The notes beneath the pieces were generated by a model. The model made no database searches and was not told where the DNA came from. It saw only the letters and a list, made by a program, of their open reading frames with translations. A stretch of DNA of 64,000 nt from Sphingomonas echinoides ATCC 14820 (GTDB taxonomy: Bacteria; Pseudomonadota; Alphaproteobacteria; Sphingomonadales; Sphingomonadaceae), in assembly GCF_000241465.1 (NCBI RefSeq), contig NZ_JH584235.1, positions 137,339 to 201,338 on the forward strand, written 5' to 3'. Both the position numbers and the translations under genes were made by a program. Below, piece after piece: positions 7,891 to 37,929 of this stretch (positions within the stretch are counted from its first letter, which is position 1; the number at the start of each line of letters is the position of its first letter).

Positions 7891-8054
7891 GATGGTATCT
7901 CCCATCTGGACGACCGGCATATGCCATCAAAAATACCATCAGATTGTTGGTATGCAGTGGTATTTGGCCGATCCAACTGGGATGATTATATCACGAAAAA
8001 ACCGCAAAAAACAGCGGTTTAAGGCACGTTTTGGGATGCCTTGGGAAGGCATTT

Positions 8055-18749: not shown

Positions 18750-19036
18750 GCGTCGCCCATGCGGTCTGGCGTCCACAATTCGGTGAGCGTCTGGTTGACG
18801 ACGACGCTGGTGATACCGGGCAGGTCGTTCAGCACGTCGGCGATATAGCCCTGCATCGAGGAGAAATGCACGCAAGCGGTGTCGGTCAGGCACAGTGTGA
18901 CGGTCGCGCGGCCGTCCTCGACCTCGATCGCCTCGATGAGGCCCATCGCGCCGAGCGTCGTGGGACGACCCATCGCAAACGCGCACGGCTCGGGTATCGC
19001 GGCGACCCGTTCACGGATGCGATCGACGACACTCAT
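18746..19036 (-). CDS. MIP18/DUF59-family protein (PaaD-like)
   Basis: The 96-residue protein resembles the MIP18 family: LGAMGLIEAIEVEDGRATVTLCLTD, then GYIADVLNDLPGITSVVV. Relatives such as PaaD and SufT help place Fe-S clusters or accompany multicomponent oxygenases. It is wedged by 4-base overlaps between an amidohydrolase and a CoA-transferase gene, so it is made with them. A role in maturing the Rieske oxygenase encoded at 29467 is possible but not shown. Confidence 0.72.
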   Translation of the reverse strand: MSVVDRIRERVAAIPEPCAFAMGRPTTLGAMGLIEAIEVEDGRATVTLCLTDTACVHFSSMQGYIADVLNDLPGITSVVVNQTLTELWTPDRMGDA

Positions 19037-20106
19037 GCAGGCACGTTCGTTGTGCGTAGCGCCGACCATGGTTCCGGAATTCCGGCAGCGCGCTCGCGTG
19101 CGAAGGCGTCGTCTGCGGTGGCCGCGATGACGGCGGCTGGATCGAGTCCATGAAGGCGAAGCGCATTGTCGCCGAGGATATTGGCGCGGTCGCGGTCTGT
19201 GAGCGGCTCGATGCCGAATTCGTCGAGATGCGCGTCGGCGAACTGATAGCCGTCGAACGCCGCGAGGAGCGGCGCGGGGTGGGCGAGGTTATTGCCGCTG
19301 GCGAACAGCAGCCGGTCCGAACCCACCGCCTGGATCAATCTGCCCATCACCTTGTCGAACACCCGCGGCTTGACGAGGATGTAGGAGAAGGTCGTCTCGA
19401 GCGTCAGATACAGATTGGGATGGCGGCGCATTAATTCGATGGTCTGGTCGAGGAACGCGGTGCCGCCATGCACCATCTCGAAGGTCATGTCGGAAAAGCG
19501 CGCGAGCGGCGAATCCATGTCGTCGATATCGAATGCCGAGCGCGGCGCGGGCTCGAGCCACAATGCCTTGTGAATGGCGACGCGCGTAATCCCCATCTCG
19601 CGCGCGGCTTCGAGCAGGGGGGTGGCGAAGTCTTCGCCGTCGAGCCGCCAGCCGGTCGCCTGATTGTCGTAATAGAGCGCCGGGTACAGCTTCAGCCCGT
19701 CGACCCCGAAGGTATCGACCTGACGTCGCAACTCGTCGATCGCGCCCTTGCCGATCGGCGTGCCGACCGTGGCGTAGAGGCGAAAGCGATCGGGGTGCCG
19801 GTCGCGCAGGGCCGCGGCACGGTCGGGATCGGTGACGTTGCCGGTCGTGAAGCCGAGACAGGGCAGCGAATGGATGACGGCTAGGTCGACCGGGCTTTCG
19901 ACAAACTCGGCTGCGGCGAGCGCGTCGAAACTGATGTCGCTGAAGATCTCGCCGTCGGTCAGCTCGTAGCGGCGATTGGCGTCGTCGAGCGACAGCTTGT
20001 GCGAGGCATGAACCGCGTCGAGCTGCGCCCGTGCGGCCGGGTTCTGGTTTTCCGGCGACAGGTTCCACGGATGGAACACCGCATCGACGATGACCCGGCG
20101 CGTCAC
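19033..20106 (-). CDS. Amidohydrolase-2 (ACMSD-like) family protein
   Basis: The 357-residue TIM-barrel protein follows the amidohydrolase_2 pattern (GVDGLKLYPALYYD, VAIHKALWLEP, LYLTLETTFSYI, RLLFASGNNLAHP, LTDRDRANILGDNALRLHGL). Enzymes of this group are metal-dependent decarboxylases or hydrolases of cyclic acids. The N-terminal HxH metal motif is not obvious here (VDAVFHPWNLS), so the metal site may be altered. It starts at a GTG that overlaps the upstream crotonase stop and ends in an ATGA overlap with the DUF59 gene. Confidence 0.75.
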   Translation of the reverse strand: MTRRVIVDAVFHPWNLSPENQNPAARAQLDAVHASHKLSLDDANRRYELTDGEIFSDISFDALAAAEFVESPVDLAVIHSLPCLGFTTGNVTDPDRAAALRDRHPDRFRLYATVGTPIGKGAIDELRRQVDTFGVDGLKLYPALYYDNQATGWRLDGEDFATPLLEAAREMGITRVAIHKALWLEPAPRSAFDIDDMDSPLARFSDMTFEMVHGGTAFLDQTIELMRRHPNLYLTLETTFSYILVKPRVFDKVMGRLIQAVGSDRLLFASGNNLAHPAPLLAAFDGYQFADAHLDEFGIEPLTDRDRANILGDNALRLHGLDPAAVIAATADDAFARERAAGIPEPWSALRTTNVPA

Positions 20107-20906
20107 GACGGTTTCTTGTTGTAGACGGGCGCGCGTTTCTCGAGCGCCGCGCCAACGCCTTCACGCAAGTCGTCGGAATAGCTCAGCGTGGCGACTCCCC
20201 AGAAGCTTGCGTTCATCGATCCGACCAGGGTCATGTGCCAGCTCTCGCGCAGTTGCTGCTTGGTCGCTTCGATCGCGAGGCGCGGACGCTCGGCGATCCG
20301 CGCCGCCAGTGCCACGGCTTCAGCGACGAGTTCGTCGGCCGGGACGACGCGGTTGAACAGTCCCATCGCGAGCGCTTGCGCCGCATCGTAAAGGTCGCCG
20401 GTCAGGGCCATTTCGGCGGCCAGGCCCGAGCCCACCAGCCGCGGCAGGAAATAGGTGCCGCCATTGCCGGGGTTGAGGCCGAGCTTGATATAGGTCTCGC
20501 CGACCTTCGCGCGGTCCGAGCCTAGTCGGATGTCGCAAGCGAGAGCCAGGTCGAGCCCGCCGGCGGTCGCGCCGCCATTGACTGCGGCGATCACCGGCAG
20601 GCGGCTTGAGACGAGGCGCTGCGTGACGGGCCACAGGACGCGCGCGTTATAGGGTTCCTGCGTCTGGGCCTGGGTATCGGCCAGATAAGTGGCGAACTCG
20701 ACGAGGTCTGCGCCGGCGCAGAATTGCTTGCCGGCGCCGGTCAGCACGAGCACGCGCACGCTGGTGTCGATTTCGAGCGTGTTGAGCGCATGGATCAAGT
20801 CCGCGGCCATCTCTGGAACCACGCCGTTGCCGCGCTCCGGTCGATTGAGCGTGATCATCGCCACACCGTCGGCGGGGCGGTCGAGCAGGATCGTGTCGTA
20901 GTCCAT
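20103..20906 (-). CDS. Enoyl-CoA hydratase/isomerase (crotonase) family protein
   Basis: The 267-residue crotonase has the oxyanion-hole motifs GKQFCAGADL and NGGATAGGLDLALACD. The first catalytic Glu of classical hydratases is replaced by Asp (GGLDLAL) and the second falls on a Tyr (YIKLGLNPGNGG), so it may be an isomerase, hydrolase or C-C lyase rather than a hydratase. It begins two bases after the stop of the thiolase gene upstream. Confidence 0.82.
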   Translation of the reverse strand: MDYDTILLDRPADGVAMITLNRPERGNGVVPEMAADLIHALNTLEIDTSVRVLVLTGAGKQFCAGADLVEFATYLADTQAQTQEPYNARVLWPVTQRLVSSRLPVIAAVNGGATAGGLDLALACDIRLGSDRAKVGETYIKLGLNPGNGGTYFLPRLVGSGLAAEMALTGDLYDAAQALAMGLFNRVVPADELVAEAVALAARIAERPRLAIEATKQQLRESWHMTLVGSMNASFWGVATLSYSDDLREGVGAALEKRAPVYNKKPS

Positions 20907-20908
20907 GA

Positions 20909-22075
20909 TCAGACCTTGCGAAGAATCGAGGCGACCGCAAGCGCATAGCTGCCGTCGAGCCAGCCGCCGCCGTTGACCGCGAGCGCTTGGCGCGCGCCCG
21001 CGACCTGCCGCCCGTTCGCCTGGCCGCGCAGCTGCACCACGAGCTCGACGATCTGGGCGCAGCCCGTCGCGCCCAGCGGATGGCCGCGGCTGAGCAAGCC
21101 GCCGCTGGTGTTGACCGGCGTGCGGCCGCCGATGTCGGTGGCGCCTTCGCGGATCAGCACATGCCCTTCGCCTTCGGCGCACAGTCCGACTTCGGCATAT
21201 TGCATGAGCTCGGCCGGCGCCGCCGCATCGTGCAGTTCCATCAGGTCGAAATCCTCGGGACCGATGCCGGCAGCTTCATAGGCGATGGCGACCGCGTCGC
21301 GTACCGGATTGCCGCGGGCGCCAGACGCGATCCGCGTCGTCACGAGCTCGACCGCGTCGGCGCCCCGCGCCTTGGCATAATCTTCCGAGCAGATAAGGAG
21401 CGCAGCCGCCCCGTCCGTCGTCGGCGAGCACATCGGCAGGGTCAGCGGCGCGACGATCATCCGCGCGTTGAGCACGTCGTCGAGCGATTGCGGCGCGCGG
21501 AGATGCGCGTTCGGATTGTGCGCCGCGTTCTTGCGGTTCTTGACGGCGACCCGCGCAAAGTCCGCCGGGTCGGCACCGTAGGTGTCGAGATAGCGCTGGG
21601 CTACTTCGGCGTAGAAATCCATCAGCAGCGAATTGGCGCTCATCTGGCCCGGCTCGGCCTCGCCGATGTCCTCGATGTCGGTGGATCCGCGCAGCGCGTT
21701 GAACGGGCGCGACTTGTCGGCATGGTTGAGCTGCTCGGCACCGATCACCATCACCGCCTTGGCGGCACCGCTTGCGATCGCCTCATAGCCGATGCTGAGC
21801 GCCGATCCTCCCGACGCGCACGCATTCTCGACGTTGATCAGTGCGGCTCCATTGAGGGCGTGGCGGCGCAACGCGACCTGGCCGCGGATCATCTCCTGCT
21901 GCGTGACGATCCCTGCCACCGCGTTGCCGAAATAGACTCGCTCGATATCGGCGGCGTCGGCCTTGGCATCGTCGATCGCGGCGTCGACGGCCTCGATTGC
22001 GAGGTTGCGTACGCCCATGCCGAGATGTTTGCCGAAGTGCGTCATGCCGACGCCCGCTACCATCACGCGATTCAT
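20909..22075 (-). CDS. SCP-x/thiolase-family protein
   Basis: The 388-residue protein is a thiolase-superfamily member of the lipid-transfer/SCP-x type. The nucleophile Cys86 is present (NVENACASGGSALSIG), as are LMELHDAAAPAELMQY and the C-terminal GGLLSRGHPLGATG with the active-site His. It would cleave a 3-ketoacyl-CoA by thiolysis, removing acetyl- or propionyl-CoA. Its ATG overlaps the stop of the acyl-CoA ligase gene. Confidence 0.87.
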   Translation of the reverse strand: MNRVMVAGVGMTHFGKHLGMGVRNLAIEAVDAAIDDAKADAADIERVYFGNAVAGIVTQQEMIRGQVALRRHALNGAALINVENACASGGSALSIGYEAIASGAAKAVMVIGAEQLNHADKSRPFNALRGSTDIEDIGEAEPGQMSANSLLMDFYAEVAQRYLDTYGADPADFARVAVKNRKNAAHNPNAHLRAPQSLDDVLNARMIVAPLTLPMCSPTTDGAAALLICSEDYAKARGADAVELVTTRIASGARGNPVRDAVAIAYEAAGIGPEDFDLMELHDAAAPAELMQYAEVGLCAEGEGHVLIREGATDIGGRTPVNTSGGLLSRGHPLGATGCAQIVELVVQLRGQANGRQVAGARQALAVNGGGWLDGSYALAVASILRKV

Positions 22076-23658
22076 GCCTGCGCCTCCACCGGGGCGCCGC
22101 CGCCGATCCTGCTGTCGTGTCCCTGCCAATATTTCTCGCGCACTTCGCGGCGCAGGATCTTGCCGTAACCGCTGACCGGCAGCGCCTTGACGAAATCGAC
22201 CGCCTTGGGCTTCTTGTATCCGGCCAGATGGTCGGCGCAGTGGGCGATGATGTCCTTGGCGCTGACCTGCGCGCCCGGCTCGGTCACGACCACGGCATGC
22301 ACGGCTTCGCCCCAATAGGGATCGGGAATACCGACCACGCACACGTTCGCGACAGCGGGATGCCGGACGATGATTTCCTCGACCTCGCGGGGATAGACGT
22401 TGTTGCCGCCGGAGATGATCATGTCCTTGGCGCGGTCGAGCAGGAAGAGGTAGCCAGCGTCGTCGAACATCCCGATATCGCCGGTATGCAGCCATCCCCC
22501 GCGTAGCGCTTCGGCCGATGCCTCCGGATTGTTCCAGTATCCCGGCATCACGACGTCGCCGCGCACGACGACTTCGCCGGCTTCGCCAGGGGGCAGGGGG
22601 TTGTCATCCTCATCGACGCAATGCGCCTCGACGTCGGTGCGGATCTGCCCGGCCGACCCGATCCGCGGGTCGTCGGCGTCGAGCAGTTCCTGATGCCGCC
22701 GCGCGGTCATGCCGGTGATCGTGATCGGTGCCTCGCCCTGACCGAACAGTTGCACGAACACCGGACCGAACGCCGCGATCGCGCGGCGCAAATGCACGAC
22801 ATGGATCGGTGCGCCGCCATAGGTGATCGCGTTGAGCGAGCTCAGGTCATAGGCGCCGGGCTCGAACTCATCGAGCATCTTGATGATCTGGGTCGGTGCG
22901 AGAAAGGCGACATGACCGACCCGATGCCGCTCGATCGTCGCGAACAGCGACTTGGGCTCGAAGCTGGCGGGTTCGAGAATTACCTGCGTCGCGCCGCGCG
23001 CGATTGCCGGAAGCGCCACGATGCCGCTCCCGTGCGACATCGGCGCGGCGTGCAGTACGACCTCGCCGGGCTGGATGTTATGGAGGTCGGCGAGGTAGTT
23101 CATCACCACGCAGCGCACCATCCGGTGGTTCCAGATCGCACCCTTCGGGCGCCCGGTGGTACCCGACGTGTAGAAGAGCCAGCACGGATCGGTAGCCTCG
23201 ACGTCGACGGCGCTACTCAGTGCGTAGCGGGCGTCGGTCAGATCGTCATATGGCGACGCGCCATCGGCCGGCTCGAGACAGAAGCGGTGCGCCAGTCCCT
23301 CGAACGCATCGATCGCGTCGGCGATGCCTGCTTGGTACTCGGCACCGTGCACCAGCACCTTCGCGCCCGAATTGGCGACGATATAGGCCATTTCGCGCGG
23401 GTGGAGCCGGGCGTTGATCGGCACGACGACAAGACCGCCGGCGAAGCAGCCGTATATGACCTCGAGGATCCGGGGCGAATTGGCGAGGCAGAACGCCACG
23501 CGATCGCCCGGCTTGCATCCCAGGCGATGGAGGTTGCCGGCAATCGCCAGGGCCCGGGCATGAAAATCGCGATACCCGACGACCTCGTCACCGTGGATCA
23601 GCGCCGGCGCGTCGCCGCGCTGGCGTGCCGCCTTGTCGAGGAACGCGAAGCTGTTCAC
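22072..23658 (-). CDS. AMP-dependent acyl-CoA ligase
   Basis: The 528-residue ANL enzyme has the motifs LFYTSGTTGRPKGAIWNHRM, TYGGAPIH, WLHTGDIGMFDDAGYLFLLDRAKDMI and VSGYGKILRREVRE (adenylation Lys). It activates an acid to its CoA ester. The GTG start at 23658 overlaps the stop of the DUF35 gene (GTGA); a frame continuing to 23739 would overlap that gene and has no support. Confidence 0.9.
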   Translation of the reverse strand: MNSFAFLDKAARQRGDAPALIHGDEVVGYRDFHARALAIAGNLHRLGCKPGDRVAFCLANSPRILEVIYGCFAGGLVVVPINARLHPREMAYIVANSGAKVLVHGAEYQAGIADAIDAFEGLAHRFCLEPADGASPYDDLTDARYALSSAVDVEATDPCWLFYTSGTTGRPKGAIWNHRMVRCVVMNYLADLHNIQPGEVVLHAAPMSHGSGIVALPAIARGATQVILEPASFEPKSLFATIERHRVGHVAFLAPTQIIKMLDEFEPGAYDLSSLNAITYGGAPIHVVHLRRAIAAFGPVFVQLFGQGEAPITITGMTARRHQELLDADDPRIGSAGQIRTDVEAHCVDEDDNPLPPGEAGEVVVRGDVVMPGYWNNPEASAEALRGGWLHTGDIGMFDDAGYLFLLDRAKDMIISGGNNVYPREVEEIIVRHPAVANVCVVGIPDPYWGEAVHAVVVTEPGAQVSAKDIIAHCADHLAGYKKPKAVDFVKALPVSGYGKILRREVREKYWQGHDSRIGGGAPVEAQA

Positions 23659-24041
23659 TCGGCGTGCCCGAAATTGGCGTAGGTCTTGTCCCGCGCGGGC
23701 TGGAACGTCACGCGCTGGTCGCAAGCATAGCTTGCCCATTCGCCATCTTCATCGGGTGCCATCCGCCCCAGCAGCTGCACGCCTTCGTCGAGTTTGACGA
23801 TACCCAGCGCGTAGGGGATCTCCTGCTCGAAGCCCTCCGGGCCCCCGGCGCGCAGCACCGTGACGCTCATCAGCGTCCCCGTTCCTGCCGCCTTCTGCCA
23901 TCCGAGATCGTCGGACTGGCAATGCGGACAGGCGTAGCGCGGATACATGTTGAGCTGTTGGCAGCTGTTGCACTTCTGCAGGAGAAGGTCGCCAGCGGCG
24001 AGGCCGTCGCGAAAGCCCTGGATGATCGGAGAATTCGCCAT
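23655..24041 (-). CDS. DUF35 zinc-ribbon/OB-fold protein (ChsH2-DUF35-like)
   Basis: The 128-residue protein has a rubredoxin-like zinc ribbon (CNSCQQLNMYPRYACPHC) followed by an OB fold (GTLMSVTVLRAGG). DUF35 proteins pair with thiolase-like enzymes; in actinobacterial steroid side-chain degradation the Ltp2-DUF35 pair is an aldolase. Here it lies three bases downstream of a thiolase-like gene that lacks the nucleophilic Cys, which suggests the same kind of partnership. Confidence 0.85.
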   Translation of the reverse strand: MANSPIIQGFRDGLAAGDLLLQKCNSCQQLNMYPRYACPHCQSDDLGWQKAAGTGTLMSVTVLRAGGPEGFEQEIPYALGIVKLDEGVQLLGRMAPDEDGEWASYACDQRVTFQPARDKTYANFGHAE

Positions 24042-24044
24042 CGT

Positions 24045-25265
24045 TCAGCCCTCCACCCGCTCGAGAAGCAGGACCTGTGCGTCCATGTAGGTGCCGCCGG
24101 TGCCGCCGATGATCGCGCGACGGCAGCCCTCGACCTGCCTGGGTTGCTCGGCGCGGTGCAGGAGCTGCCGCACCCCTTCGACCAGCAGGGCAGTGCCGCC
24201 ACCGACACCGGTGTGACCGGCGGACAGCAGGCCGCCATTGGTGTTGACCGGCAGCTTGCCGCCGGGATCGCCATTGCCCGCGGCGAACCAGCGCGCGCCT
24301 TCGCCCTTGGGACAAAGTCCGAGACCCTCCATCGCGATCGTGGTCACCGCGGCATAGCTGTCATAGACTTGCGCCAGGTCGGCGTCCTCGGGCCCCCAGC
24401 CCGACTGGGCGTAGGCGCGTTCGGCGGCGAGCGGCCAGCCCAGCACCGACAGGTTGGTTTCCTGGCCGATGCTGTAATGGCTGACGCAACCGCCCGAGCC
24501 GGCGATGCGAACGCTCTCGGTGAGGCCGCGTTTCCTGGCGTTCTCGGCGCTCGTCATCACGAACGCCACGGCGCCGTCGGCGAGCGGCGGGCATTCGAGT
24601 GCGTGGAGCGGATCGGAAATCATCTTGGACGCGAGGATTTGCTCGACCGTCAGGTCCTTGTCCTTGAACATGGCATTGGGGTTGAGGCGCGCCCACTTGC
24701 GCAGCGTGACGCACACCGACGCCATTTCCTCAGCGGTCGAACCGGTATCGTGCATGTAGCGCTGCGTGATCAGCCCGCCGACGGCGTTGAATTGCAGCCC
24801 CGTCACTTGCTCCCACTCCTGCGGGATGCCGTTCTTCGACAAAGCGGTGACCATCTCGGCCAGGTTCGCCGACCCCCAGCGCTCGCAATGCAGGACGAGG
24901 ACCGTCTTCGCGTGTCCGGCAGTGATCAGGCCAGCGGCGGATCGCACGGCGTTGTCGCTCGTCGACCCCCCCGAATGGATCATGAGGCTCGCCTTGGCAT
25001 GGCGATTGAGCCCGAGCTCCTCGACCATCCGCGAGAAGACGAGGTCGGCCTGGTCCGCGAACCCGTGGAGGTTGGGGATGAGGAGGATGGTGTCGACATC
25101 CTTGGGCGCCATCCCGGCGTCCTTGAGCGCCAGGATGGCGACCTTGGTCAGATCGCCGATGAAGTTGCGGTCCGGATATCGGCCCGAAGGGATCTCGCCC
25201 ACGCCGACGAAAACCGGATCGTTGGGCTGTCCGGCATCGACATAGCTCGGCCATTGTTCAGCCAT
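24045..25265 (-). CDS. Thiolase-like protein lacking the nucleophilic Cys (possible aldolase)
   Basis: The 406-residue thiolase-fold protein has normal C-terminal motifs (YDSYAAVTTIAMEGLGLCPKGEGARW, GGLLSAGHTGVGG). Where thiolases have CASGG it reads I96-H-S-G-G, so the acyl-accepting Cys is missing. Ltp-type aldolases also lack it. With the DUF35 gene directly downstream, a retro-aldol C-C cleavage of a branched hydroxyacyl-CoA is a reasonable prediction. ATG 25265 overlaps the MaoC stop by eight bases. Confidence 0.83.
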   Translation of the reverse strand: MAEQWPSYVDAGQPNDPVFVGVGEIPSGRYPDRNFIGDLTKVAILALKDAGMAPKDVDTILLIPNLHGFADQADLVFSRMVEELGLNRHAKASLMIHSGGSTSDNAVRSAAGLITAGHAKTVLVLHCERWGSANLAEMVTALSKNGIPQEWEQVTGLQFNAVGGLITQRYMHDTGSTAEEMASVCVTLRKWARLNPNAMFKDKDLTVEQILASKMISDPLHALECPPLADGAVAFVMTSAENARKRGLTESVRIAGSGGCVSHYSIGQETNLSVLGWPLAAERAYAQSGWGPEDADLAQVYDSYAAVTTIAMEGLGLCPKGEGARWFAAGNGDPGGKLPVNTNGGLLSAGHTGVGGGTALLVEGVRQLLHRAEQPRQVEGCRRAIIGGTGGTYMDAQVLLLERVEG

Positions 25266-25746
25266 TGGCGGTCTCCTTCGGGCGGCGCTTGGCAAGCATG
25301 AATTGCTGGAACACCATCACTTCCTCATCGCGTTGGTTGCGCACAGAATAATTGACACCGATCGTGCCGTATTTCGGGTTGTCGCCGGCGGTCAGCTCGA
25401 TCACTTCGGCGTGGACGCTGAGCGTGTCGCCGGCGATCACCGGCTTGGTCGCGCGCAGCGAACGGATCTCGAGCAGCGCGGTGATCGCGTCGCCGTAGAA
25501 ACCGCTCAGCCCGACCAGGCCCACCGCCACGGTGAAGGTGAAAGGGCCATGCGCGATGCGCGTGCCGAACCGCGTCTTCTTGGCGGCCTCTTCGTCGATG
25601 TGGAGCGGATAATAGTCGCCCGTCAGCTCGGCGAAATTGCCGATCGCACTATTGTCGATCGTCCGGCCGCGCGTGATCACGACATCGCCGAGTTCGAAAT
25701 CGTCGAAGAATTTTTCCTGCGGGTCGTGGAAAATCCGACTGCTCAC
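25258..25746 (-). CDS. MaoC-like hydratase/dehydratase
   Basis: The 162-residue hotdog protein carries the MaoC hydratase-2 motif GDYYPLHIDEEAAKKTRFGTRIAHG, with the catalytic Asp and His. It hydrates enoyl-CoA esters or performs a related dehydration. The GTG at 25746 is preceded by GGGAGC; the frame to 25785 would cross the operator. It is the first gene of the operon down to 17571. Confidence 0.87.
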   Translation of the reverse strand: MSSRIFHDPQEKFFDDFELGDVVITRGRTIDNSAIGNFAELTGDYYPLHIDEEAAKKTRFGTRIAHGPFTFTVAVGLVGLSGFYGDAITALLEIRSLRATKPVIAGDTLSVHAEVIELTAGDNPKYGTIGVNYSVRNQRDEEVMVFQQFMLAKRRPKETANG

Positions 25747-25756
25747 AAAAGCTCCC

Positions 25757-25771
25757 AAACAACTGTTCGTT
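25757..25771. promoter_or_regulatory. Operator at the MaoC operon promoter
   Basis: AAACAACTGTTCGTT (inverse AACGAACAGTTGTTT) differs by one base from the site before the TonB receptor (13493-13507). It lies 11 bases upstream of the MaoC start and 55 bases from the 3' end of the TetR gene. Confidence 0.65.
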
Positions 25772-25825
25772 TTTTCGTGCCGCAAGCGCGTCCGCTCGTC
25801 AAGCTTTCGTAGCGCACCGCCGGCG

Positions 25826-26463: not shown

Positions 26464-27600
26464 TCAGAGTCCCATTTCCTTGGCGATGATACCGCGCTGG
26501 ATCTCGTTCGTCCCGCCGCCGACCATGCCGTGCTTCGCCTCGCGGAAGTAGCGCTCCATGTCGTATTCGGGAAGCTGCGAATATCCGCCGAGCGCTTGCA
26601 TGCCGTTGAACGCGGTCTGGAACAGCGTGTTCACGCAGAACACCTTCGCCATCGAGACGTCTTTCGACGCTTTCTCGCCTTTGGCGAGCTTGGACGCAGC
26701 GGCATAGACCATGAGGCGTGCCGCGGTGAGGTTGATCTCGTCGTCTGCCATGCGATGCTTTAGCACCTGGAACGACGACAGCGTCTTGCCGAAGGCCGAA
26801 CGGTCCTTGGTATAGCGGATCGTATCGTCGAGCGCGGTGCGGGCGTTGCCGACTTGGCTGGCCGCGATGCTGAGACGCTCGAGGTCGAGGTGCTCGCCGA
26901 TATATTTCCAGCCCTTGCCGACCTCGCCGAGCAGATTTTCCTTCGGGATGCGCATATCGTCCATGAAGAATTCGGTCGTCCCGAGACTCTTGCGCACGAT
27001 CGTGTTCATCTTCTTGAGCTCGAGGCCCGGCGTCGTGTTGGGCACCAGGAAGAGGCTGAACCCGCCATAGCGGTCGTCGCTCGTCCGGGCGAGGACGACG
27101 ATCGTCGTGTTCGGCAAATGCGCGCCGGAGCACCACACCTTGTTACCGTTGAGCACCCACTCGTCGCCATCGAGCTTCGCGGTCGAGCGGGCGCCGGCGG
27201 CGTCGGACCCCGATTGCGGTTCGCTGATCGAGATGGAGAACTTCATCTCGCCCCGCAGGAACGGCTTGAGATATTTCTCATGCTGCTCGGGCGTGCCGTG
27301 CTTGGCGATGTTGGTCGCGGTGAACATCGAGGTCATCAGGCAGGCAGCGGTATCGAGGCTGAACTTGCCGATCGCCTCGCAAAAGATCGCGAACATGATC
27401 GGGTCGGTCTCCATGCCGCCCTGCGATTCGGGAATCAGCAAGCCGAGCCAGCCTTGTTCCGCGGCCTTCTGAAACAGTTCCTCGGGGAATTCCCGGCTCT
27501 GGTCGTGCTCGCGCGTATAGTCGCGCCCCACCTCCTTCTCCATGAAGCTGTGCATCATGTCGTGCCACATCTGCTGCTCTTCGGTGAACGCGAAATCCAT
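26464..27600 (-). CDS. Acyl-CoA dehydrogenase
   Basis: The 378-residue FAD enzyme introduces a 2,3-double bond into an acyl-CoA. FAD and substrate motifs are SISEPQSGSDAAGARSTAKLDG and the C-terminal GGYSQLPEYDMERYFREAKHGMVGGGTNEIQRGIIAKEMGL. The usual C-terminal catalytic Glu is replaced by Gly (GGGTNEIQ), but Glu241 in LDLERL occupies the alternative position used by isovaleryl-CoA dehydrogenase. A branched or long substrate is therefore plausible. Confidence 0.9.
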   Translation of the reverse strand: MDFAFTEEQQMWHDMMHSFMEKEVGRDYTREHDQSREFPEELFQKAAEQGWLGLLIPESQGGMETDPIMFAIFCEAIGKFSLDTAACLMTSMFTATNIAKHGTPEQHEKYLKPFLRGEMKFSISISEPQSGSDAAGARSTAKLDGDEWVLNGNKVWCSGAHLPNTTIVVLARTSDDRYGGFSLFLVPNTTPGLELKKMNTIVRKSLGTTEFFMDDMRIPKENLLGEVGKGWKYIGEHLDLERLSIAASQVGNARTALDDTIRYTKDRSAFGKTLSSFQVLKHRMADDEINLTAARLMVYAAASKLAKGEKASKDVSMAKVFCVNTLFQTAFNGMQALGGYSQLPEYDMERYFREAKHGMVGGGTNEIQRGIIAKEMGL

Positions 27601-27686: not shown

Positions 27687-27709
27687 ATTGTCTAGTGGAG
27701 AGGGTGTCG

Positions 27710-29452
27710 ATGGCGCAAATTCCGGACATCCCGGCGCGGCGAGGCGAATTGGAGCGCCGCTTTCCGGAATGGCCAGGCTGGACGCTGGCGCAGGCGTTCG
27801 ATGCCGCCGCAGATCAATATCCGGACCGACCGATGTTCCGCAACGAGCAGGGCATGCGCACGTATTCCGAGCTTCAGGCATGGTCGCGCAATATTGCCCT
27901 TGGCCTGCTCGCGATCGGCATCGAGCCGGGCGACCATGTCGCCTTGCTCATGGCAAACTATGTCGAGTTCGTCGCGGTCAAGCTGGCGATCGCTCGCGTC
28001 GGCGCGGTCACGATCCCCGTCAACTTCAACCTGCGCGGCGAGGAGCTGCGCTACGTCCTCGATCAGTCGGATGCCGTTGCCCTGGTCGTCATAGACGAGT
28101 TTCGCGGGCACGATTATCTCGCCGACCTCGATCGCTTCGCGCCCGAGTGGCGCAGCGGCGGCGCGTCGCTCAACCGGTTGCGCGAGATCTTCGTGCTGCC
28201 GACGAGCGGCGTCCAACCGCTCGGGGCGCGCACGCTCGACGATCTGGTCGCGCTGGGCCGGGGCGGCGACCTGGCAGAGCTCGACCGGCGAACTGCAGGT
28301 GGCGATGCGTCGGCACCGTGCGACATTCTCTACACGTCGGGGACCACGGGACGCTCCAAGGGCGTCATCCTCACGCACGACATGATCCTGCGCGTGGCCT
28401 ATTCGTCGGTCTATCACCGGGCGTTGTCGGACGGCCGCTCGACCGCGCACGCGCTCCCGATGTATCACGTCTACGGCTATGTCGAATGCCTCGTGGTGGC
28501 CTGGTTCGTCGGCGGCAGCGTCGTCACCCAGCTGGTCTTCGAACCTGCCGCTTTTCTCGAGCAAGCCGAGGCTCACCGGGTCACGGACATCATCGCGCTG
28601 CCCAACCAGACGATCAAACTGCTCGAAGTGGCGGCGAAGCGGGGGTTCGATTCGTCCGCTTTGGTCCAGCTGTTCAACAGCGGCGGCGTGAACCCGCCGG
28701 GCATCTGGGAGGATATCAGGGCCGTGTTCAAGCCGCGCGAGCTCATCACCGCTTACGGGATGAGCGAAACGACGGCCTCGAGCGTATGCTCGCTGCCCGA
28801 GGGCGACGATCACTGGCTGCACGTGTCGAATGGCCGCTACAAGCTCGCCCATGTCGCGGGCGACCCCGCGTTCGGCGGGCTGGTCGCCGCCTATCGAGTG
28901 CTCGATCCGGAGACCGGCGAAGAGGTGCCGCATGGCGAGATCGGTGAACTCGTCGCCAAGGGGCCGATCGTAACCGCCGGCTATTATCGCAAGCCCGAGG
29001 AGACTGCCGACGCCTTCACCGGCGATGGCTGGCTCCACACCGGCGATCTTGGGAAAGTGACCGCCGACGGCTATCTCACGCTGACCGGACGTCTCAAGGA
29101 ATCGTATCGTTGCGGCGGTGAAATGGTGATGCCGCGCGAGATCGAGGCGCTTGTCGAGACCCTGCCCGACATCGAGCTGGCGCTGGCGGTCGGCGTGCCC
29201 GATGTCAAAATGGGCGACGTCGGGTGTCTCTGCATCGTGCCGGTCGCCGGTGCCGATCCCGACCCTGCCGCGCTGGTCGCGCTGTGCGCCAGCAACCTCG
29301 CGCGCTTCAAGGTGCCGCGCCACGTCCTGTTCTTCGCGGCCGCCGACATTCCGATGACGTCCACCGGGCGACCCCAGAAAGTGAAGCTCGCGCAGATCGC
29401 GCGCGAGCGGCTCCACGACAATCTCGCCGCGCTCGACGCGGCGCCACGTTAA
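27710..29452 (+). CDS. AMP-dependent acyl-CoA ligase
   Basis: The 580-residue ANL enzyme has the motifs ILYTSGTTGRSKGVILTHDM, TAYGMSETTASSV, WLHTGDLGKVTADGYLTLTGRLKE and STGRPQKVKL (adenylation Lys). It forms CoA esters of a carboxylic acid. ATG 27710 follows GGAGAGG by 6 bases. The Rieske oxygenase gene starts 14 bases downstream, so the two are co-transcribed under the operator at 27673-27686. Confidence 0.9.
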   Translation: MAQIPDIPARRGELERRFPEWPGWTLAQAFDAAADQYPDRPMFRNEQGMRTYSELQAWSRNIALGLLAIGIEPGDHVALLMANYVEFVAVKLAIARVGAVTIPVNFNLRGEELRYVLDQSDAVALVVIDEFRGHDYLADLDRFAPEWRSGGASLNRLREIFVLPTSGVQPLGARTLDDLVALGRGGDLAELDRRTAGGDASAPCDILYTSGTTGRSKGVILTHDMILRVAYSSVYHRALSDGRSTAHALPMYHVYGYVECLVVAWFVGGSVVTQLVFEPAAFLEQAEAHRVTDIIALPNQTIKLLEVAAKRGFDSSALVQLFNSGGVNPPGIWEDIRAVFKPRELITAYGMSETTASSVCSLPEGDDHWLHVSNGRYKLAHVAGDPAFGGLVAAYRVLDPETGEEVPHGEIGELVAKGPIVTAGYYRKPEETADAFTGDGWLHTGDLGKVTADGYLTLTGRLKESYRCGGEMVMPREIEALVETLPDIELALAVGVPDVKMGDVGCLCIVPVAGADPDPAALVALCASNLARFKVPRHVLFFAAADIPMTSTGRPQKVKLAQIARERLHDNLAALDAAPR

Positions 29453-29466
29453 GTGAGGACCGAACG

Positions 29467-30639
29467 ATGAACGAGCGGACGCCGGTGCCCGAGGGCCTCA
29501 CTGAGCAGATGAAGCATCTCGAGGCAGAAGCGGCGCGCGCCTTCCCGACACCGGCCGAAAAACAATATCCGCTGCCACCCAGTGTGGTCGACGCGAGCGA
29601 CTATACCGACCCGAACCTGTTCGACCGCGAGATGAAGGCGATCTTTCATCACAGCTGGTTCCCGGTCTGTCCGACCGTCGATCTCAGGAACCCGCGTGAC
29701 TACGTCGTCTGGGACCGCCTCCAGCAGTCGATCGTCATCGCCCGTCTCGACGATGGGAGCATCGCCGCCTGGCACAACGTCTGCCAGCATCGCGGCGCCC
29801 GGCTGCTGAAGGAGTCTGGGAGCTGCAAGGGCGGCCGCTTCGCTTGTCCGTGGCACGGGCTGCAATATGACCTCTCCGGCATCGTCAAAGCCGTGCCGCT
29901 CAAGGAATCGTTCGATGCGGCGCGGCTCGAAGGCCTGCGGGCGCCGGCCGTCCGCGCCACCGAATGGGGTAGCTTCATCTGGCTGTGCCTCTCGGACGAC
30001 GTTCCCGAACTCGAACCGTATCTCGGCGCCGTCGGCGAGGAACTGTCCTTTTACGGGCTCGACCGCTTTGAGACACGGTTTCGTTACGAGATCGAACTCA
30101 ATGCGAACTGGAAGGTGGTCGTCGATGCCTTCAACGAGACCTGGCACGTGCCCTTCACGCACTCGGTGACGCTGGGCAAGTTCGTGCTGTGGCGCGATGC
30201 TCATCTTCGCATTACGCCGCCGCACAGCTGGATGACCTTGCCGCTCAAGGGGTTCACCGACCGCATGGGCGACGCGGATCACCGGCTCAAGAACATCTGC
30301 CACTATACGGCGTTCCCGAACACCGTGTTCAGCTGCTTTCCGACGCACCTGCAAACGTGGAACGTCTGGCCGGTCAGCGTGGACAAGACGATCATGACCG
30401 CCTGGGGCGTGGTCGGCCCGGCCCCGGAGGGCGTGAGCGAGGATGACTGGCAAGCGCAGAACCAGCGCGACTGGGATCATTTTGTCGCGGTGTCGGCGGA
30501 GGACGCCGCTGTCCTCAACGACTGGGGGACGGTGTCGCACTCACTCGGTGCCAAACAATATATGTTCAACACCGCGGAGAGCCGGTTGACGGCTTTCCAT
30601 CAGGAGGTGGCGCGCCGCGTTGCGGCGGCCACCTCCTGA
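29467..30639 (+). CDS. Rieske-type aromatic-ring or terpenoid oxygenase, alpha subunit
   Basis: The 390-residue oxygenase has an N-terminal Rieske [2Fe-2S] site with Cys106, His108, Cys127 and His130 (CQHRG ... CPWHG) and a C-terminal mononuclear iron site with His227 and His232 in FNETWHVPFTH. No beta subunit is nearby, so it is probably a homotrimeric monooxygenase or demethylase type. Electrons would come from a separate ferredoxin and reductase, perhaps those at 37926 and 38262. Substrate unknown. Confidence 0.9.
   Translation: MNERTPVPEGLTEQMKHLEAEAARAFPTPAEKQYPLPPSVVDASDYTDPNLFDREMKAIFHHSWFPVCPTVDLRNPRDYVVWDRLQQSIVIARLDDGSIAAWHNVCQHRGARLLKESGSCKGGRFACPWHGLQYDLSGIVKAVPLKESFDAARLEGLRAPAVRATEWGSFIWLCLSDDVPELEPYLGAVGEELSFYGLDRFETRFRYEIELNANWKVVVDAFNETWHVPFTHSVTLGKFVLWRDAHLRITPPHSWMTLPLKGFTDRMGDADHRLKNICHYTAFPNTVFSCFPTHLQTWNVWPVSVDKTIMTAWGVVGPAPEGVSEDDWQAQNQRDWDHFVAVSAEDAAVLNDWGTVSHSLGAKQYMFNTAESRLTAFHQEVARRVAAATS
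30601..30638. terminator. Hairpin at the end of the Rieske gene
   Basis: CAGGAGGTGGC (30601-30611) pairs perfectly with GCCACCTCCTG (30628-30638) with a 16-base loop, inside the last codons of the oxygenase gene. Convergent genes meet 9 bases further on. No U tract follows, so termination efficiency is uncertain; it may serve both directions. Confidence 0.45.
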
Positions 30640-30647
30640 CGGCCCCC

Positions 30648-31394
30648 TTATTGACCGGTCATGCCGCCATCGATGACATGTTCCATACCCGTGATGAAGG
30701 CTGAATCGTCGCTGGCCAGGAACAGCATCAGCCGTGCCACCTCCTCGGCCTGACCCATGCGCTTGAGCATCGTCATCTCGGCAGCGCCACCGCCATTCTC
30801 GTCGGTTGCCTCGACCATCATCGGCGTAAGGATGAACCCCGGATGGATCGAGTTGACGCGGATATTGTGCTTTCCGAATTCGGCGGCGACGGCCTTTGTC
30901 ATGCCGCGCACGGCAAACTTGCTGGCGACATAGGCAAGGTTGGGAAAGCCGAAACAGGCGGTCATGCCGGCGATCGACGAGATGTTCACGATCGCCCCAC
31001 CGCCGGCCTCGATCATACCGGGGATGACGGCGCGCATGCCGTGCATGACGCCGTGCTGATTGATGTCGATGACGCGCTCATAAGCTTTGATGTCGATCTT
31101 GAGCGTGTTCGCAATCGGCCCGAGAATGCCGGCGTTGTTGACCAGGATCGTGACCGGCCCGAATGCCGCCTGCGCCTGATCGAGCACCGCGGCCCAGGAC
31201 TGCGGATCGGCGACGTCCTGGACGACGAACAGCGCGCTCGGCCCGATGCTCTCGGCCAGCGCCTTGCCCTCCTGTTCCTGAACATCGGTCAGCACGACGC
31301 GCGCGCCTTCGGCCGCGAGCATGCGGGCGTGCGCGGCGCCCATTCCCTGCGCCGCGCCCGTCACCAGCGCCACCTTGCCGTCAAGCTTGCCCAT
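30648..31394 (-). CDS. SDR-family dehydrogenase
   Basis: The 248-residue classical short-chain dehydrogenase has the cofactor motif TGAAQGMG (12-19), NNAG at 86-89 and the catalytic Ser140, Tyr155 and Lys159 (SSIAG ... AYVASK). Asp37 after the second strand suggests NAD. It resembles 3-alpha/20-beta-hydroxysteroid and terpene alcohol dehydrogenases. It shares a divergent operator-bearing promoter with the 6-oxocamphor-hydrolase-like gene, so oxidation of a ring hydroxyl to the ketone is a good guess. Confidence 0.88.
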   Translation of the reverse strand: MGKLDGKVALVTGAAQGMGAAHARMLAAEGARVVLTDVQEQEGKALAESIGPSALFVVQDVADPQSWAAVLDQAQAAFGPVTILVNNAGILGPIANTLKIDIKAYERVIDINQHGVMHGMRAVIPGMIEAGGGAIVNISSIAGMTACFGFPNLAYVASKFAVRGMTKAVAAEFGKHNIRVNSIHPGFILTPMMVEATDENGGGAAEMTMLKRMGQAEEVARLMLFLASDDSAFITGMEHVIDGGMTGQ

Positions 31395-31557: not shown

Positions 31558-32349
31558 ATGAGCGGCCCGGCCCCGACGTTCGATCGCTACAAGGATCGCT
31601 ATGAAAACATCGCGCTGACGCGCGACGAGGACGGCGTCCTACTGATGACGCTGGGTACGAACGGCGGCCCGTTCGTCTGGAGTTCGCTCGCGCATGACGA
31701 ACTCGGCTATTGTTTCACCGATATCGGTGCCGACCGCGAGAACAAGGTCGTCGTGATGACGGGCACCGGCGCGAACTGGTGCGAAACGATCGATGCGGCG
31801 AGCTTCAAGCTGAGCACGGCCGGCGACTGGGACTATGTGTTCTACGACGGCCGCCGGCTGCTCAAGAATCTGCTCGATATCGAAGTCCCGGTCATCAGCG
31901 CGATCAACGGTCCGGCGCGAATTCATCCGGAAATTCCGGTGATGTCGGATATCGTCATCGCCTCGGACACCACGCTTTTCCAGGACGCGCCCCACTTCAT
32001 GTCCGGCATCGTTCCGGGCGATGGTGCCCATGTCGTCTGGACCAACCTGCTGGGCCCCAATCGGGGCCGCTATTTCCTGCTGATGGGACAGGAACTCGAC
32101 GCTGTCGAATCGCAGCGCCTCGGAGTGGTCGGCGAGGTCGTGGCGCTCGATCGCGTCCTGCCGCGCGCGCTGGAGATCGCGCGCGAGTTCGCCGCCAAAC
32201 CCAGCCTCGCACGCCGGTACGCGCGCGTCGTGCTCACGCAGCGCTACAAGCGGCTGATGGCGGAAGGACTCGATCTCGGGCTGGCGCTCGAGGCGCTCGC
32301 GGTCATCGACGGCATGCCGGCCGATGGCCGGATGAAGGATCTTCGCTGA
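31558..32349 (+). CDS. camK: 6-Oxocamphor hydrolase-like beta-diketone hydrolase (crotonase fold)
   Basis: The 263-residue crotonase-fold protein closely follows Rhodococcus 6-oxocamphor hydrolase along its whole length as I remember it: [27 protein letters not shown]-type [38 protein letters not shown] and [15 protein letters not shown]. The active-site residues His123 (IHPEIP), His146 (DAPHF) and Asp155 (PGDGAH) are all in place. That enzyme cleaves a non-enolisable bicyclic beta-diketone by retro-Claisen hydrolysis. ATG 31558 aligns with the known start. It sits behind a block B operator. Confidence 0.87.
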
Positions 32350-32382: not shown

Positions 32383-32880
32383 CTATTTCGCGTCGAGATG
32401 CGGGACCCAGCTAGGTGTCGTCGGTCGGTAGTTGAACGGATGTTCGCCCGTCACCTCGAGCAACTCGACGACATTGCCGTCGGGATCGCGGCCGTAAATG
32501 GCGCGCAGCGGCCGGTCACCCGCACGCTGCGGTACGCCGTTGAAGGTCATGCCCGCCGCGGATAGCCGCTCATATTCCGCGTCGAGGTCGGTGACACCGA
32601 AGCAGATATGGGTGATGCCCGCGTCGCAGACCGGCCGGTTGGGATCGCTGGCTCTGGGTTGGGGCGCGCTATATTCGAACAGTTCGAGGCACTGGTTGCC
32701 CGCTTTGAGCAGCGCGAACGAGGCCGCCGATCCCTCGAGCCCAACGATGACGTCGAGTTCGGGCGCGTCGGACCATCCATCCTCGACGATCGGCGTCATC
32801 CCGAACAGGTCGCAGTAAAAATCCTTCAGTCGGGCGAGGTCGCGCGTGGCGATTGCCGTGTGATGCATTCCCAGGATCAT
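32383..32880 (-). CDS. VOC (glyoxalase/dioxygenase) family protein
   Basis: The 165-residue VOC protein has two beta-alpha-beta modules (MHHTAIATRDLARLKDFYCDLFGM and ITHICFGVTDLDAEYERLSAAGM), ending with YGRDPDGNVVELLEV. Metal-ligand His and Glu positions (His7, His at ITHICF, Glu in VELLEV) are conserved. Possible roles are an epimerase, isomerase or dioxygenase for a pathway intermediate. It ends a minus-strand operon with the SnoaL-like, quinone-reductase-like and P450 genes. Confidence 0.82.
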   Translation of the reverse strand: MILGMHHTAIATRDLARLKDFYCDLFGMTPIVEDGWSDAPELDVIVGLEGSAASFALLKAGNQCLELFEYSAPQPRASDPNRPVCDAGITHICFGVTDLDAEYERLSAAGMTFNGVPQRAGDRPLRAIYGRDPDGNVVELLEVTGEHPFNYRPTTPSWVPHLDAK

Positions 32881-32896
32881 GACGGTGGTTCCTCTT

Positions 32897-34443: not shown

Positions 34444-34458
34444 GGTCGGTCTAGCCGG

Positions 34459-35688
34459 TCACCATTCCAGTCTTACGCCATCGACGCTGGCGACGACGCC
34501 CGAGTGATAGGTCGGGCCGGTACCCGGGACGACGCGAAAGGTCGGGATTCGCTTCAGCCATTCCTCGAGCATCACCGTTGTCTCCAACCGCGCGAGGTGC
34601 AGCCCGGCACAGCGGTGCGGACCGTTGCCGAACGTCGAATGCGCTGGCCGCTTGCGCTGGAAGTCGACCTCCCACGGGTCGGCGTTGACGCGCGGATCGA
34701 GGCCATGAAGCGCGGTGGGAAGCAGGACCATCTCGCCCTGTTTGAGTTCGACGCCATCGCGTTCGACGTCATGTGCGACCATCCTCGCGGCGGCAACCAG
34801 CGGAAATCGGCGAAACAGTTCCTCGACACCGCGGCGGATTTCGGTCGGGTTCTCGGTCAGCTCGCGCACCTTGTCCGGATGACGACCGAGATAATCCATC
34901 GTCATGTTGAGGAAGTTCGTCACCGTGTCGAGGCCCGCGAGCAACAGGAGCGACACCATCCCGAGCAGCTTCTCGCGCTCCATCGGCGCGCCATTGACCT
35001 GGCTGTTGATCGACAGCGTCAGGATATCGGTGCCGTCGCCGCCCATACGCGCGTCGATGATGGGCGAGACATAATCGAAGAAGCTGCGATTGGCGCGGTC
35101 CAGCGCGTCGGCCATTTCGGTCGGCGTGTTGCCCTCGGGCCGGGTCATCCCGGCGGCGAACGCCCGCAGCTTGGGTGAATCCTCCATCGGCAGATCGGCC
35201 ATCATCATGAAGACGCGGATGGGGAACTCGCCGGAAAACTCCTCGACGAAATCGCAATGCCCCTTGTCGGCAAAGGCTTCGATCAAGGCGATGGCGTGCG
35301 CACGCACCGCTGGTTCGCGCTCGCGGATCGCGCGCAGATTGAGCCCCTTGTCGACCACCTCGCGGTACGGTCGGTGCTCTGGTGGGTCCATTTTCGACGG
35401 CACCATCGCGTATTTCTCGCCGGCCGCCTTGGGGATGAAGATGACGTGGCTCGAGAAATGGTCAGGGTCGCAATAGATGTCCTGGATCAGCTCGCCACGC
35501 GTGGCGATCCAGTGTCCGCCGTTGAGCGGCGTCCAGACCATGCTGGGCAGGTCGGCAGTCTGAAGGCTCGTCCACGCCTCGAGATAGCCCTTCTCGATCC
35601 CTTGCGGGTTGTACATGTCGAGTTCGACCACCCGGTCGGCGGGCACATGGGCCGGTCGTGGCGTGTGAATCTCTTCGGCGGCGCTCAT
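34459..35688 (-). CDS. Cytochrome P450, CYP101-type
   Basis: The 409-residue P450 follows P450cam closely. It has the oxygen-activating Asp254-Thr255 in AGLDTVTNF, the ExxR motif Glu290-Arg293 and the heme-binding loop FGNGPHRCAG with Cys360. Tyr93 (GEKYAMVPS) and Phe84 (VIFIP) align with the Tyr96 and Phe87 that hold the camphor ketone, so a small ketone-bearing substrate is likely. ATG 35688 lies 7 bases after AGAGG; the longer frame to 35733 has no such site. Electrons would come from the ferredoxin and reductase at 37926 and 38262. Confidence 0.92.
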   Translation of the reverse strand: MSAAEEIHTPRPAHVPADRVVELDMYNPQGIEKGYLEAWTSLQTADLPSMVWTPLNGGHWIATRGELIQDIYCDPDHFSSHVIFIPKAAGEKYAMVPSKMDPPEHRPYREVVDKGLNLRAIREREPAVRAHAIALIEAFADKGHCDFVEEFSGEFPIRVFMMMADLPMEDSPKLRAFAAGMTRPEGNTPTEMADALDRANRSFFDYVSPIIDARMGGDGTDILTLSINSQVNGAPMEREKLLGMVSLLLLAGLDTVTNFLNMTMDYLGRHPDKVRELTENPTEIRRGVEELFRRFPLVAAARMVAHDVERDGVELKQGEMVLLPTALHGLDPRVNADPWEVDFQRKRPAHSTFGNGPHRCAGLHLARLETTVMLEEWLKRIPTFRVVPGTGPTYHSGVVASVDGVRLEW

Positions 35689-35744
35689 CGTCGATCCTCT
35701 CCCGGCTCCGTTTTGCCAGAATGCTGACGTCAAAACGACGAGTC

Positions 35745-36654: not shown

Positions 36655-37929
36655 GTGGCCACCGTTCCGGAAGAAGTACCTCCCTCGATGTCGCGCGCGC
36701 GTGCGCCGCAGCCGGCGAACGTCCCCGACGATCGGGTGTTCGAGATCGACATGTATCAACTCGACGGTATCGAAGAAGGCTATCACGAAGCCTGGAAACG
36801 CGTGCAGCAGCCCGGGACGCCCGAACTGATCTGGACGCCGTTCACCGGCGGCCACTGGATCGCCACCAACGGCCAGACCGTGCGCGAAATCTATGGCGAT
36901 CCTGAGCGGTTCTCGAGCGAGGTCATCTTCCTGCCGAAGGAGGCTGGCGAGCTTTACGACATGGTCCCGACGCGGATGGATCCGCCCGAGCACACGCCAT
37001 ACCGCAAGGCGCTCGACAAGGGGTTGAGCCTTGGCCAGATCCGTCAGGTCGAGGAAAAGGTTCGCGAAGTGGCGGTCGAGCTGATCGACGGCTTTGCCGC
37101 CGCCGGGCAGTGCGAATTTTCCAGCGAATACGCCCACATCTTCCCGGTGCGCGTTTTCATGGCGCTGGCCGACCTGCCGATGGATGACGCTGAGGTGCTC
37201 GGCCGCTTCGCCAAGATGATGACGCGGCCCGAGGGCAACACGCCCGAGGAAATGGCGGCCAATCTCGATGCGGGAAACAAGGGCCTGATCGACTATGTCG
37301 ATCCGATCATCCGCGCCCGCCGCGGCGGTTCGGGCGACGACCTCATTACGGTGATGGTCAACGCCGAAATCAACGGTGAGCTAATCTCGCACGACAAGGC
37401 GCAAGGGTTGATTGCGCTGCTGCTGCTCGCCGGGCTCGATACCGTGGTCAATTTCCTCGGGTTCATGATGCTGCATCTGGCGCGCAACCCCGAGCTGGTC
37501 GCCGAATTGCGCGGCGACAAGATCAAGCTGATGCGCAGCGCCGAGGAGATGTTCCGGCGCTTCCCGGTCGTGTCCGAGGCGCGCATGGTCGCCAAGGATC
37601 AGGAGTATAAGGGCGTCAATCTGAAGCATGGCGACATGATCCTGCTGCCGACGGCGCTGCACGGTCTCGACGAAGCCGAGAATCCGGACCCCTGGAAGAT
37701 CGACCTCCAACGACGCGGCATGTCGCACACGACGTTCGGCGGCGGACCGCACCGCTGTGCCGGCATGCACCTTGCCCGCATGGAGGTCATCTGCACGCTC
37801 GAGGAATGGTTCAACCGCATTCCCGAGTTCGGCCTCGCGCCCGGCGCCAAACCGGTGTTCCACTCGGGCATCGTCGCGGCGGTCGACAACATCCCGCTCG
37901 TCTGGCCGGTCGGCGGTCGCCCTTCATGA
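36655..37929 (+). CDS. Cytochrome P450, CYP101-type
   Basis: The 424-residue P450 has the acid-alcohol pair Asp262-Thr263 ([12 protein letters not shown]), ExxR Glu298-Arg301 and the heme loop [10 protein letters not shown] with Cys368. Phe92, Tyr101 and Thr106 align with the camphor-contacting Phe87, Tyr96 and Thr101 of P450cam. GTG 36655 follows AGGAGAG. Its stop overlaps the ferredoxin ATG, so the pair is translationally coupled. With two CYP101 enzymes present, different positions on one ring or different substrates may be hydroxylated. Confidence 0.92.

Follow-up and report, generated by a model that had tools for sequence, protein, structure and literature searches.

The OCH gene and its neighbours

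The window, by which we mean the whole stretch of 64,000 nucleotides that was analysed, contains at about 17.5-32.3 kb a catabolic cluster that includes a homologue of the 6-oxocamphor hydrolase (OCH) of Rhodococcus, and beside it two cytochrome P450 genes of the CYP101D group. The features to which we refer throughout are as follows.

31558..32349, plus strand: OCH, a 6-oxocamphor-hydrolase-type beta-diketone hydrolase of 263 aa (open reading frame, PDB match, identity, residues)
30648..31394, minus strand: SDR alcohol dehydrogenase, divergent from OCH, candidate hydroxyketone dehydrogenase (Pfam/NCBIfam)
29467..30639, plus strand: Rieske non-haem iron oxygenase of 390 aa, candidate hydroxylase of the OCH route (Pfam Rieske and Ring_hydroxyl_A)
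27695..29452, plus strand: acyl-CoA ligase ACS27, candidate activator of the OCH product (domain match, homologues)
26464..27600, minus strand: acyl-CoA dehydrogenase ACAD26 (domain match, homologues)
25258..25785, minus strand: MaoC-type hydratase (homologues)
24045..25295, minus strand: thiolase-fold protein without the nucleophilic Cys, YDSY motif, candidate retro-aldolase
23655..24041, minus strand: DUF35/ChsH2-C OB-fold protein, C-x2-C-x10-C-x2-C, candidate aldolase partner
22072..23739, minus strand: second acyl-CoA ligase, ACS22
20909..22075 (start inferred), minus strand: true thiolase, NACASGG and GHPLGATG motifs
20103..20906 (start approximate), minus strand: enoyl-CoA hydratase/hydrolase (crotonase)
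19033..20106, minus strand: amidohydrolase-2 family protein
17571..18986 (start uncertain), minus strand: class III CoA-transferase
34459..35733, minus strand: CYP101D5, part of one unit with QOR, SnoaL and glyoxalase-fold genes that faces OCH in convergent orientation
36655..37929, plus strand: second CYP101D (CYP101D2-like), with a ferredoxin frame and a ferredoxin reductase gene behind it that extend the set to 39506

The OCH frame, of 263 codons and a stop, fills exactly positions 31558-32349 of the plus strand, and the open reading frame counted from 31465 has a G+C content of 0.68, 0.45 and 0.79 at codon positions 1, 2 and 3. Against the homologues at three other loci (L009, L014 and L021), identity at these positions is 0.71-0.80, 0.82-0.88 and 0.45-0.51, a pattern expected of a protein under purifying selection. 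In a phmmer search of PDB chains the best match is the 6-oxocamphor hydrolase 1o8u (E 1.2e-96, 326 bits), followed by 1szo (322 bits) and the Anabaena beta-diketone hydrolase ALR4455 (PDB 2j5g; 237 bits); the best crotonase after these reaches 78 bits. The Rhodococcus strain behind 1o8u and 1szo is, we take it, NCIMB 9784. With 1o8u the window OCH shares 60.6% of 249 aligned residues, which bears out the full-length likeness to the Rhodococcus enzyme that a preliminary description of this DNA had claimed, and with ALR4455 it shares 46.7% of 242.

The catalytic His123, His146 and Asp155 listed in that description are all present as well (122, 145 and 154 in 1o8u numbering), together with His46 and Glu245 (45 and 244). 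At position 122 the aligned 1szo row differs from that of 1o8u, with Ala in place of His, and partly on this ground we take His122 to be catalytic. For ABDH, an excerpt of PMC3584854 names H43, H144, D153 and E243 as the catalytic residues, all four of which have counterparts in the window OCH; by this likeness, positions 45, 145, 154 and 244 would have the same role in OCH. ALR4455 has the same His/His/Asp/Glu set. Sixteen positions that we took to be the telling ones, including the presumed pocket residues Trp40, Phe82, Leu84 and Pro123, were also set against 1o8u: 13 are equal in the window OCH, and 76, 80 and 162 differ. Trp40, His45, Phe82, Leu84, His122 and Pro123, as well as His145, Asp154 and Glu244, are invariant in the 18 rows of the clade described below, the Rhodococcus row and 1o8u, whereas ALR4455 deviates from the window OCH and 1o8u at 40, 82, 84 and 123, among others. 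By its sequence features the window protein is a member of the OCH family, and it very likely hydrolyses a bicyclic beta-diketone, although 60% identity is insufficient to fix the substrate.

Phylogeny and distribution of OCH

A crotonase phylogeny, which the preliminary description had proposed, was built from 47 rows (the window, 43 locus rows and 3 PDB rows). The window OCH falls inside an 18-row proteobacterial clade (support 99/98), and 1o8u groups with the OCH of Rhodococcus sp. 008 (98/96), to which it is only 65% identical. The proteobacterial clade is sister to this Rhodococcus pair, at a joint node of 92/93 that lies below the program's star level, and ALR4455, at 46.7% identity, is placed elsewhere in the tree. 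The window enzyme therefore has in common with the Rhodococcus hydrolase (1o8u, 1szo) its sequence, at 60.6% identity, its catalytic residues, 13 of the 16 positions and the sister position of its clade; it differs in belonging to the proteobacterial clade, in having a Rieske gene nearby and no OCH-linked P450, and in a substrate that is predicted.

Of 397 genomes of the family, 19 encode an OCH-like protein that matches at E 1e-60 or below, and five a close OCH (E 1e-100 or better, 68-100% identity); proteins that resemble OCH at about 45-51% identity are more common than close OCH. In the phylum sample, 5/398 genomes match OCH at E 1e-55, with more than 50% identity only in the window genome, and an OCH-like match at E 1e-60 is absent from the 10 other sampled genomes of the window's genus. 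A scan of genome contigs yielded 13 loci, in which four (L010-L013) encode identical OCH proteins, leaving 10 distinct sequences; these 13, together with the loci of four close-OCH genomes (L049-L052), the Rhodococcus plasmid locus L041 and the window, are the 19 OCH loci compared below.

An OCH-like match was also found in 36 plasmid records, of which seven were examined in detail; among the 30 records listed, annotated homologues mostly bear the name 'enoyl-CoA hydratase/isomerase family protein'. Six non-Rhodococcus plasmid loci have other neighbours, for example cyclase family, xanthine dehydrogenase, alkene reductase, lactonase or molybdopterin oxidoreductase genes, and at the one of Novosphingobium pentaromativorans a P450 lies about 7 kb away. 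On the Paraburkholderia and Pseudonocardia plasmids (L079, L081) the OCH-like crotonase sits directly 3' of a 'cyclase family' gene. Also, genome G017 encodes two identical OCH-like proteins (L039 and L040) about 24 kb apart.

A cluster that recurs around OCH

Much of the gene set recurs at the 18 other OCH loci, part of which end early at contig ends: a homologue of ACS27 (44-58% identity) was found at 15/18, of the Cys-less thiolase-fold protein (68-77%) at 12/18, of ACAD26 (69-78%) at 11/18, Rhodococcus among them, and of the SDR (58-74%) at 9/18. Homologues of the MaoC, DUF35, ACS22, true thiolase and crotonase proteins occur at many of these same loci, and one of the amidohydrolase was seen at L014 and L049. 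An SDR homologue of about 60% is also present at 4/5 CYP101D loci without close OCH, and the Novosphingobium colocasiae locus (L016) lacks most of these genes up to 10 kb from OCH.

On plasmid pR8L1 of Rhodococcus sp. 008 (L041) the OCH (55% identity to that of the window), ACAD (69%), MaoC (56%) and Cys-less thiolase-fold protein (68%) have alongside them a zinc-ribbon protein and a crotonase (53%), and an SDR (59%) is encoded less than 5 kb from OCH. All of these have their equivalents in the window, but the plasmid differs in carrying a 62% relative of the tandem P450 described below, which the window genome does not have, and in showing no Rieske match within the 28.7 kb examined. The OCH cluster looks like one pathway crossing phyla. 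Our search of the open-licence literature found no description of it, which is weak evidence of absence.

The neighbours of OCH also bear on how such a pathway may continue. In the thiolase-fold protein (24045-25295), Gly stands at the position of the acetoacetyl-CoA thiolase Cys, as read from the alignment, and the SGGST and YDSY motifs are kept in 12/12 homologues; the adjoining gene encodes the DUF35 protein, which bears the C-x2-C-x10-C-x2-C site. According to an excerpt of PMC12329534, Sal and Ltp2 have a Tyr base within a YDxF/Y motif, in CtSal Gly replaces the nucleophilic Cys, and CtSal is inactivated by a Cys to Ser change in the motif. The window protein resembles these steroid side-chain aldolases in its thiolase fold, the missing nucleophilic Cys, the Tyr-Asp motif and the adjacent DUF35 gene; it differs in lying in an OCH cluster and in the motif itself, YDSY against their YDCY/YDHF, so that the acid Cys of Sal (YDCY) is absent, which speaks against an aldolase. 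In Ltp2 the acid residue is Tyr344. By analogy, the cluster suggests that an acetyl arm is removed by a retro-aldol reaction, as happens with the side chains of steroids. A bicyclic 2,6-dione would on hydrolysis yield a ring with a CH2-COOH arm, and beta-oxidation of this arm would meet a tertiary alcohol, from which no ketone can form; thiolysis would then be blocked, and a retro-aldol step would be expected instead. Two CoA ligases and a CoA-transferase would in turn be in keeping with a pathway that passes through a free acid twice, as two C-C hydrolyses would make it do.

Oxygenases linked to OCH

The preliminary description reasoned that C-C hydrolysis of a symmetric diketone would need a C6-hydroxylating P450; that a hydroxylase is needed upstream of OCH in the pathway is supported. 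At 10 of the 13 contig-scan loci, 2-17 bp separate the end of a P450 from the beginning of the OCH match that follows it; the exceptions are L010 (90 bp upstream) and L019 (374 bp), both limited by the end of the contig, and L020, which has a CoA ligase there. The same P450 lies about 7 bp before OCH in G299 (by alignment), so that a P450 directly precedes OCH at 11/19 loci in total, and on the Rhodococcus plasmid one of this tandem type is found about 5 kb from OCH. The tandem-type P450s are 62-80% identical to the protein of L015 (62% for the Rhodococcus one) and 31-34% identical to the CYP101Ds of the window, and no match above 34% exists in the window genome. They occur in 4/397 family genomes, three of which are close-OCH genomes (Fisher p 1.6e-6; here and in the co-occurrence counts that follow, thresholds were set after viewing the lists).

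Two genes from OCH, the window encodes a Rieske protein whose metal-ligand motifs (C-x-H / C-x2-H and D220-H227-H232) are intact. At E 1e-90 it is found in 3/397 family genomes, the window included, each time near OCH; in the other two, G088 and G152, its gene adjoins OCH in divergent orientation. With the window left out, the Rieske genomes are again close-OCH genomes (2/2, Fisher p 7.7e-5), both of one genus, which leaves few independent cases: the window, that genus, and the locus of a gammaproteobacterial bin (L021) where the Rieske gene lies 1.6 kb from OCH and the tandem P450 is present too. The Rieske protein is absent from the plasmid records at E 1e-40. A 57% relative of the tandem P450 is encoded elsewhere in the genomes of G088 and G152, which weakens the idea of a strict replacement by the Rieske oxygenase; taken with the coexistence of the two enzymes in L021, it means that the Rieske oxygenase may do another step. 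Also, a dedicated reductase was not recognised among the genes scanned, and an AlphaFold model of the Rieske protein built from three sequences (mean pLDDT 36.8) was unfit for a fold search.

In some cases neither oxygenase was seen. The close-OCH genome G070, searched as a whole, has no Rieske match at E 1e-90, and its best tandem-type P450 is 33% identical. In the stretch examined, L020 shows a flavin monooxygenase but no P450 or Rieske gene, and L019 looks similar, with only 374 bp upstream. Flavin monooxygenase-like genes near OCH were seen at L009:6092-7726 and L020:10884-12578 (Pfam) and at L019:2587-4272 (by eye); the best match of the L009 protein in the window genome covers its N-terminal part only, at 37%.

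A proposed route and its alternatives

Our best explanation, to which we give about an even chance as a whole, is that OCH is the ring-opening step of the catabolic cluster at ~17.5-32.3 kb and is fed by the Rieske oxygenase. It builds on the observed homology, residues, tree, cluster content and co-occurrence, from which we infer every reaction and substrate. The Rieske oxygenase (29467-30639) would hydroxylate next to the bridgehead, in place of the P450 of most relatives, and the SDR would oxidise the hydroxylated product. OCH, as a CoA-independent crotonase, would then hydrolyse a C-C bond in a bicyclic 1,3-diketone that cannot enolise, either 6-oxocamphor or a closely related compound (6-oxofenchone, for example), and so form a cyclopentylacetic acid. 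This product would be activated with CoA by ACS27 and dehydrogenated by ACAD26 to an exocyclic alkene, which MaoC would hydrate to a tertiary alcohol. The pair of Cys-less thiolase-fold and DUF35 proteins would next release acetyl-CoA in a retro-aldol reaction and leave a ring 1,3-diketone; a second ring opening and the final breakdown would fall to ACS22, the crotonase, the CoA-transferase and the true thiolase.

It is possible, if on balance improbable, that the OCH-type enzyme acts on another bicyclic or cyclic beta-diketone, derived from fenchone, cineole or a norisoprenoid, in which case the chemistry would be the same and the label 'camphor' wrong. Positions 40, 82, 84 and 123, which we presume to be telling, equal those of 1o8u and speak against this. 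In its favour, the OCH of Rhodococcus 008 is itself only 65% identical to 1o8u, no gene was identified by name as camphor-specific, and the neighbouring CYP101D5 takes ionones (excerpt of PMC9655578).

Returning to the Rieske-fed route, we put forward only tentatively, as a rather unlikely reading, that the Rieske oxygenase has taken over from the P450 the hydroxylation next to the bridgehead and that a steroid-like retro-aldol reaction and a second 1,3-diketone cleavage end the route. Part of the same joint reading is a terpenoid pathway common to Sphingomonadales and Rhodococcus, in which the first oxygenases would be interchangeable.

The CYP101D genes beside the cluster

The product of 34459-35733 is identical in 409/409 residues to CYP101D5 of Sphingomonas echinoides (PDB 8gtl), which agrees with the Gram-negative host proposed in the preliminary description and suggests this species, or a very close one, as the source of the window. 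Its gene lies in a minus-strand unit (32383-35733) with quinone-oxidoreductase-like, SnoaL-like and glyoxalase-fold genes, the first of which has no homologue above 27% in the loci compared. The putidaredoxin-like ferredoxin frame after the second CYP101D was read by eye and has no Pfam match at E 1e-5.

A C6-hydroxylating CYP101 had been the preliminary suggestion, and it is the weak part of that description. OCH would here act on 6-oxocamphor, and CYP101D5 or the CYP101D2-like P450 would provide the C6 alcohol, by way of the ferredoxin and reductase at ~37.9-39.5 kb. Both CYP101D genes lie less than 6 kb from OCH. A CYP101D match is found in 12 other family genomes, and three of the four close-OCH genomes other than that of the window have one, an overlap above expectation (Fisher p 8.4e-5). 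About 23 kb separate the two genes in G088, and G070 has OCH and CYP101D yet neither a Rieske match nor a tandem-type P450 (best 33%). Because of G070, we weighted our best explanation and the Rieske reading lower, and this alternative higher. Against it, 9/12 of the other CYP101D genomes have no close OCH. The surroundings of the gene were examined in 8/12 (five without close OCH, three with), and in 5/5 of the loci without close OCH a homologue of the second CYP101D sits with an ADH homologue, 71-80% identical to the ADH of the window, while other parts vary; the CYP101D2-like P450 was for this reason downgraded as a dedicated partner of OCH. Moreover, G088 and G152 belong to one genus, and the OCH-linked P450 of relatives, only 31-34% identical to the CYP101Ds, is of another family. 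The CYP101Ds are presumably C5 hydroxylases, like P450cam. For P450cam, hydroxylation at C5 is stated in an excerpt of PMC4097962. CYP101D5, in turn, is reported to hydroxylate beta-ionone and two flavonoids and to dehydrogenate alpha-ionone, and is described as an ionone 'and not camphor' enzyme in an excerpt of PMC9655578, which on the other hand tabulates CYP101D2 as a camphor P450. We thus regard a CYP101 as the hydroxylase as doubtful and less well supported than the Rieske oxygenase, a candidate that in our sample is the more strongly linked to OCH.

Still, the overlap of CYP101D and close OCH, together with their proximity in the window and in G088, means that the strain may degrade a single terpenoid along two routes. 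The stretch at 36655-57510, a second one of terpenoid type and found in part in other sphingomonads too, holds the CYP101D2-like P450, ferredoxin, reductase, ADH, three luciferase-type monooxygenases (with no NCBIfam name at E 1e-40), a TonB receptor and, at 56329-57510, a flavin-reductase-domain protein. By analogy, this composition would resemble the Pseudomonas camphor C5/Baeyer-Villiger route, as outlined in an excerpt of PMC4097962.

Finally, an ordinary enoyl-CoA hydratase mistaken for OCH is very improbable and was rejected, since OCH, although a crotonase whose plasmid homologues mostly carry that family name, scores 326 bits to 6-oxocamphor hydrolase against 78 bits for the highest-scoring crotonase other than OCH and ALR4455, and stays below the cut-off among the best 25 of 60 matched NCBIfam families (107 bits against 292).

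Significance and genomic setting

To our knowledge, the C6 (OCH) branch of camphor degradation is known mainly from one Rhodococcus hydrolase. A cluster largely common to a Rhodococcus plasmid and several proteobacteria provides a candidate gene list for this branch. It also offers two candidate hydroxylases that differ in their chemistry, as well as new C-C hydrolases, predicted to be desymmetrising, whose annotation goes no further than enoyl-CoA hydratase. The enzyme family is already known, and the cluster is a pathway variant with a testable gene list. Also, as CYP101D5 next door has already been crystallised, the native context of a studied P450 can be tested.

A gain of the cluster by transfer is plausible. 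No tRNA gene was found within the window. A transposase-type gene (4483-5358) and a phage-integrase-type gene (6664-7920) lie to the left of the catabolic region. At 61183-62682 the window contains a methylmalonate-semialdehyde dehydrogenase gene, and G299 (L050) has a counterpart of 88% identity close to its OCH cluster.
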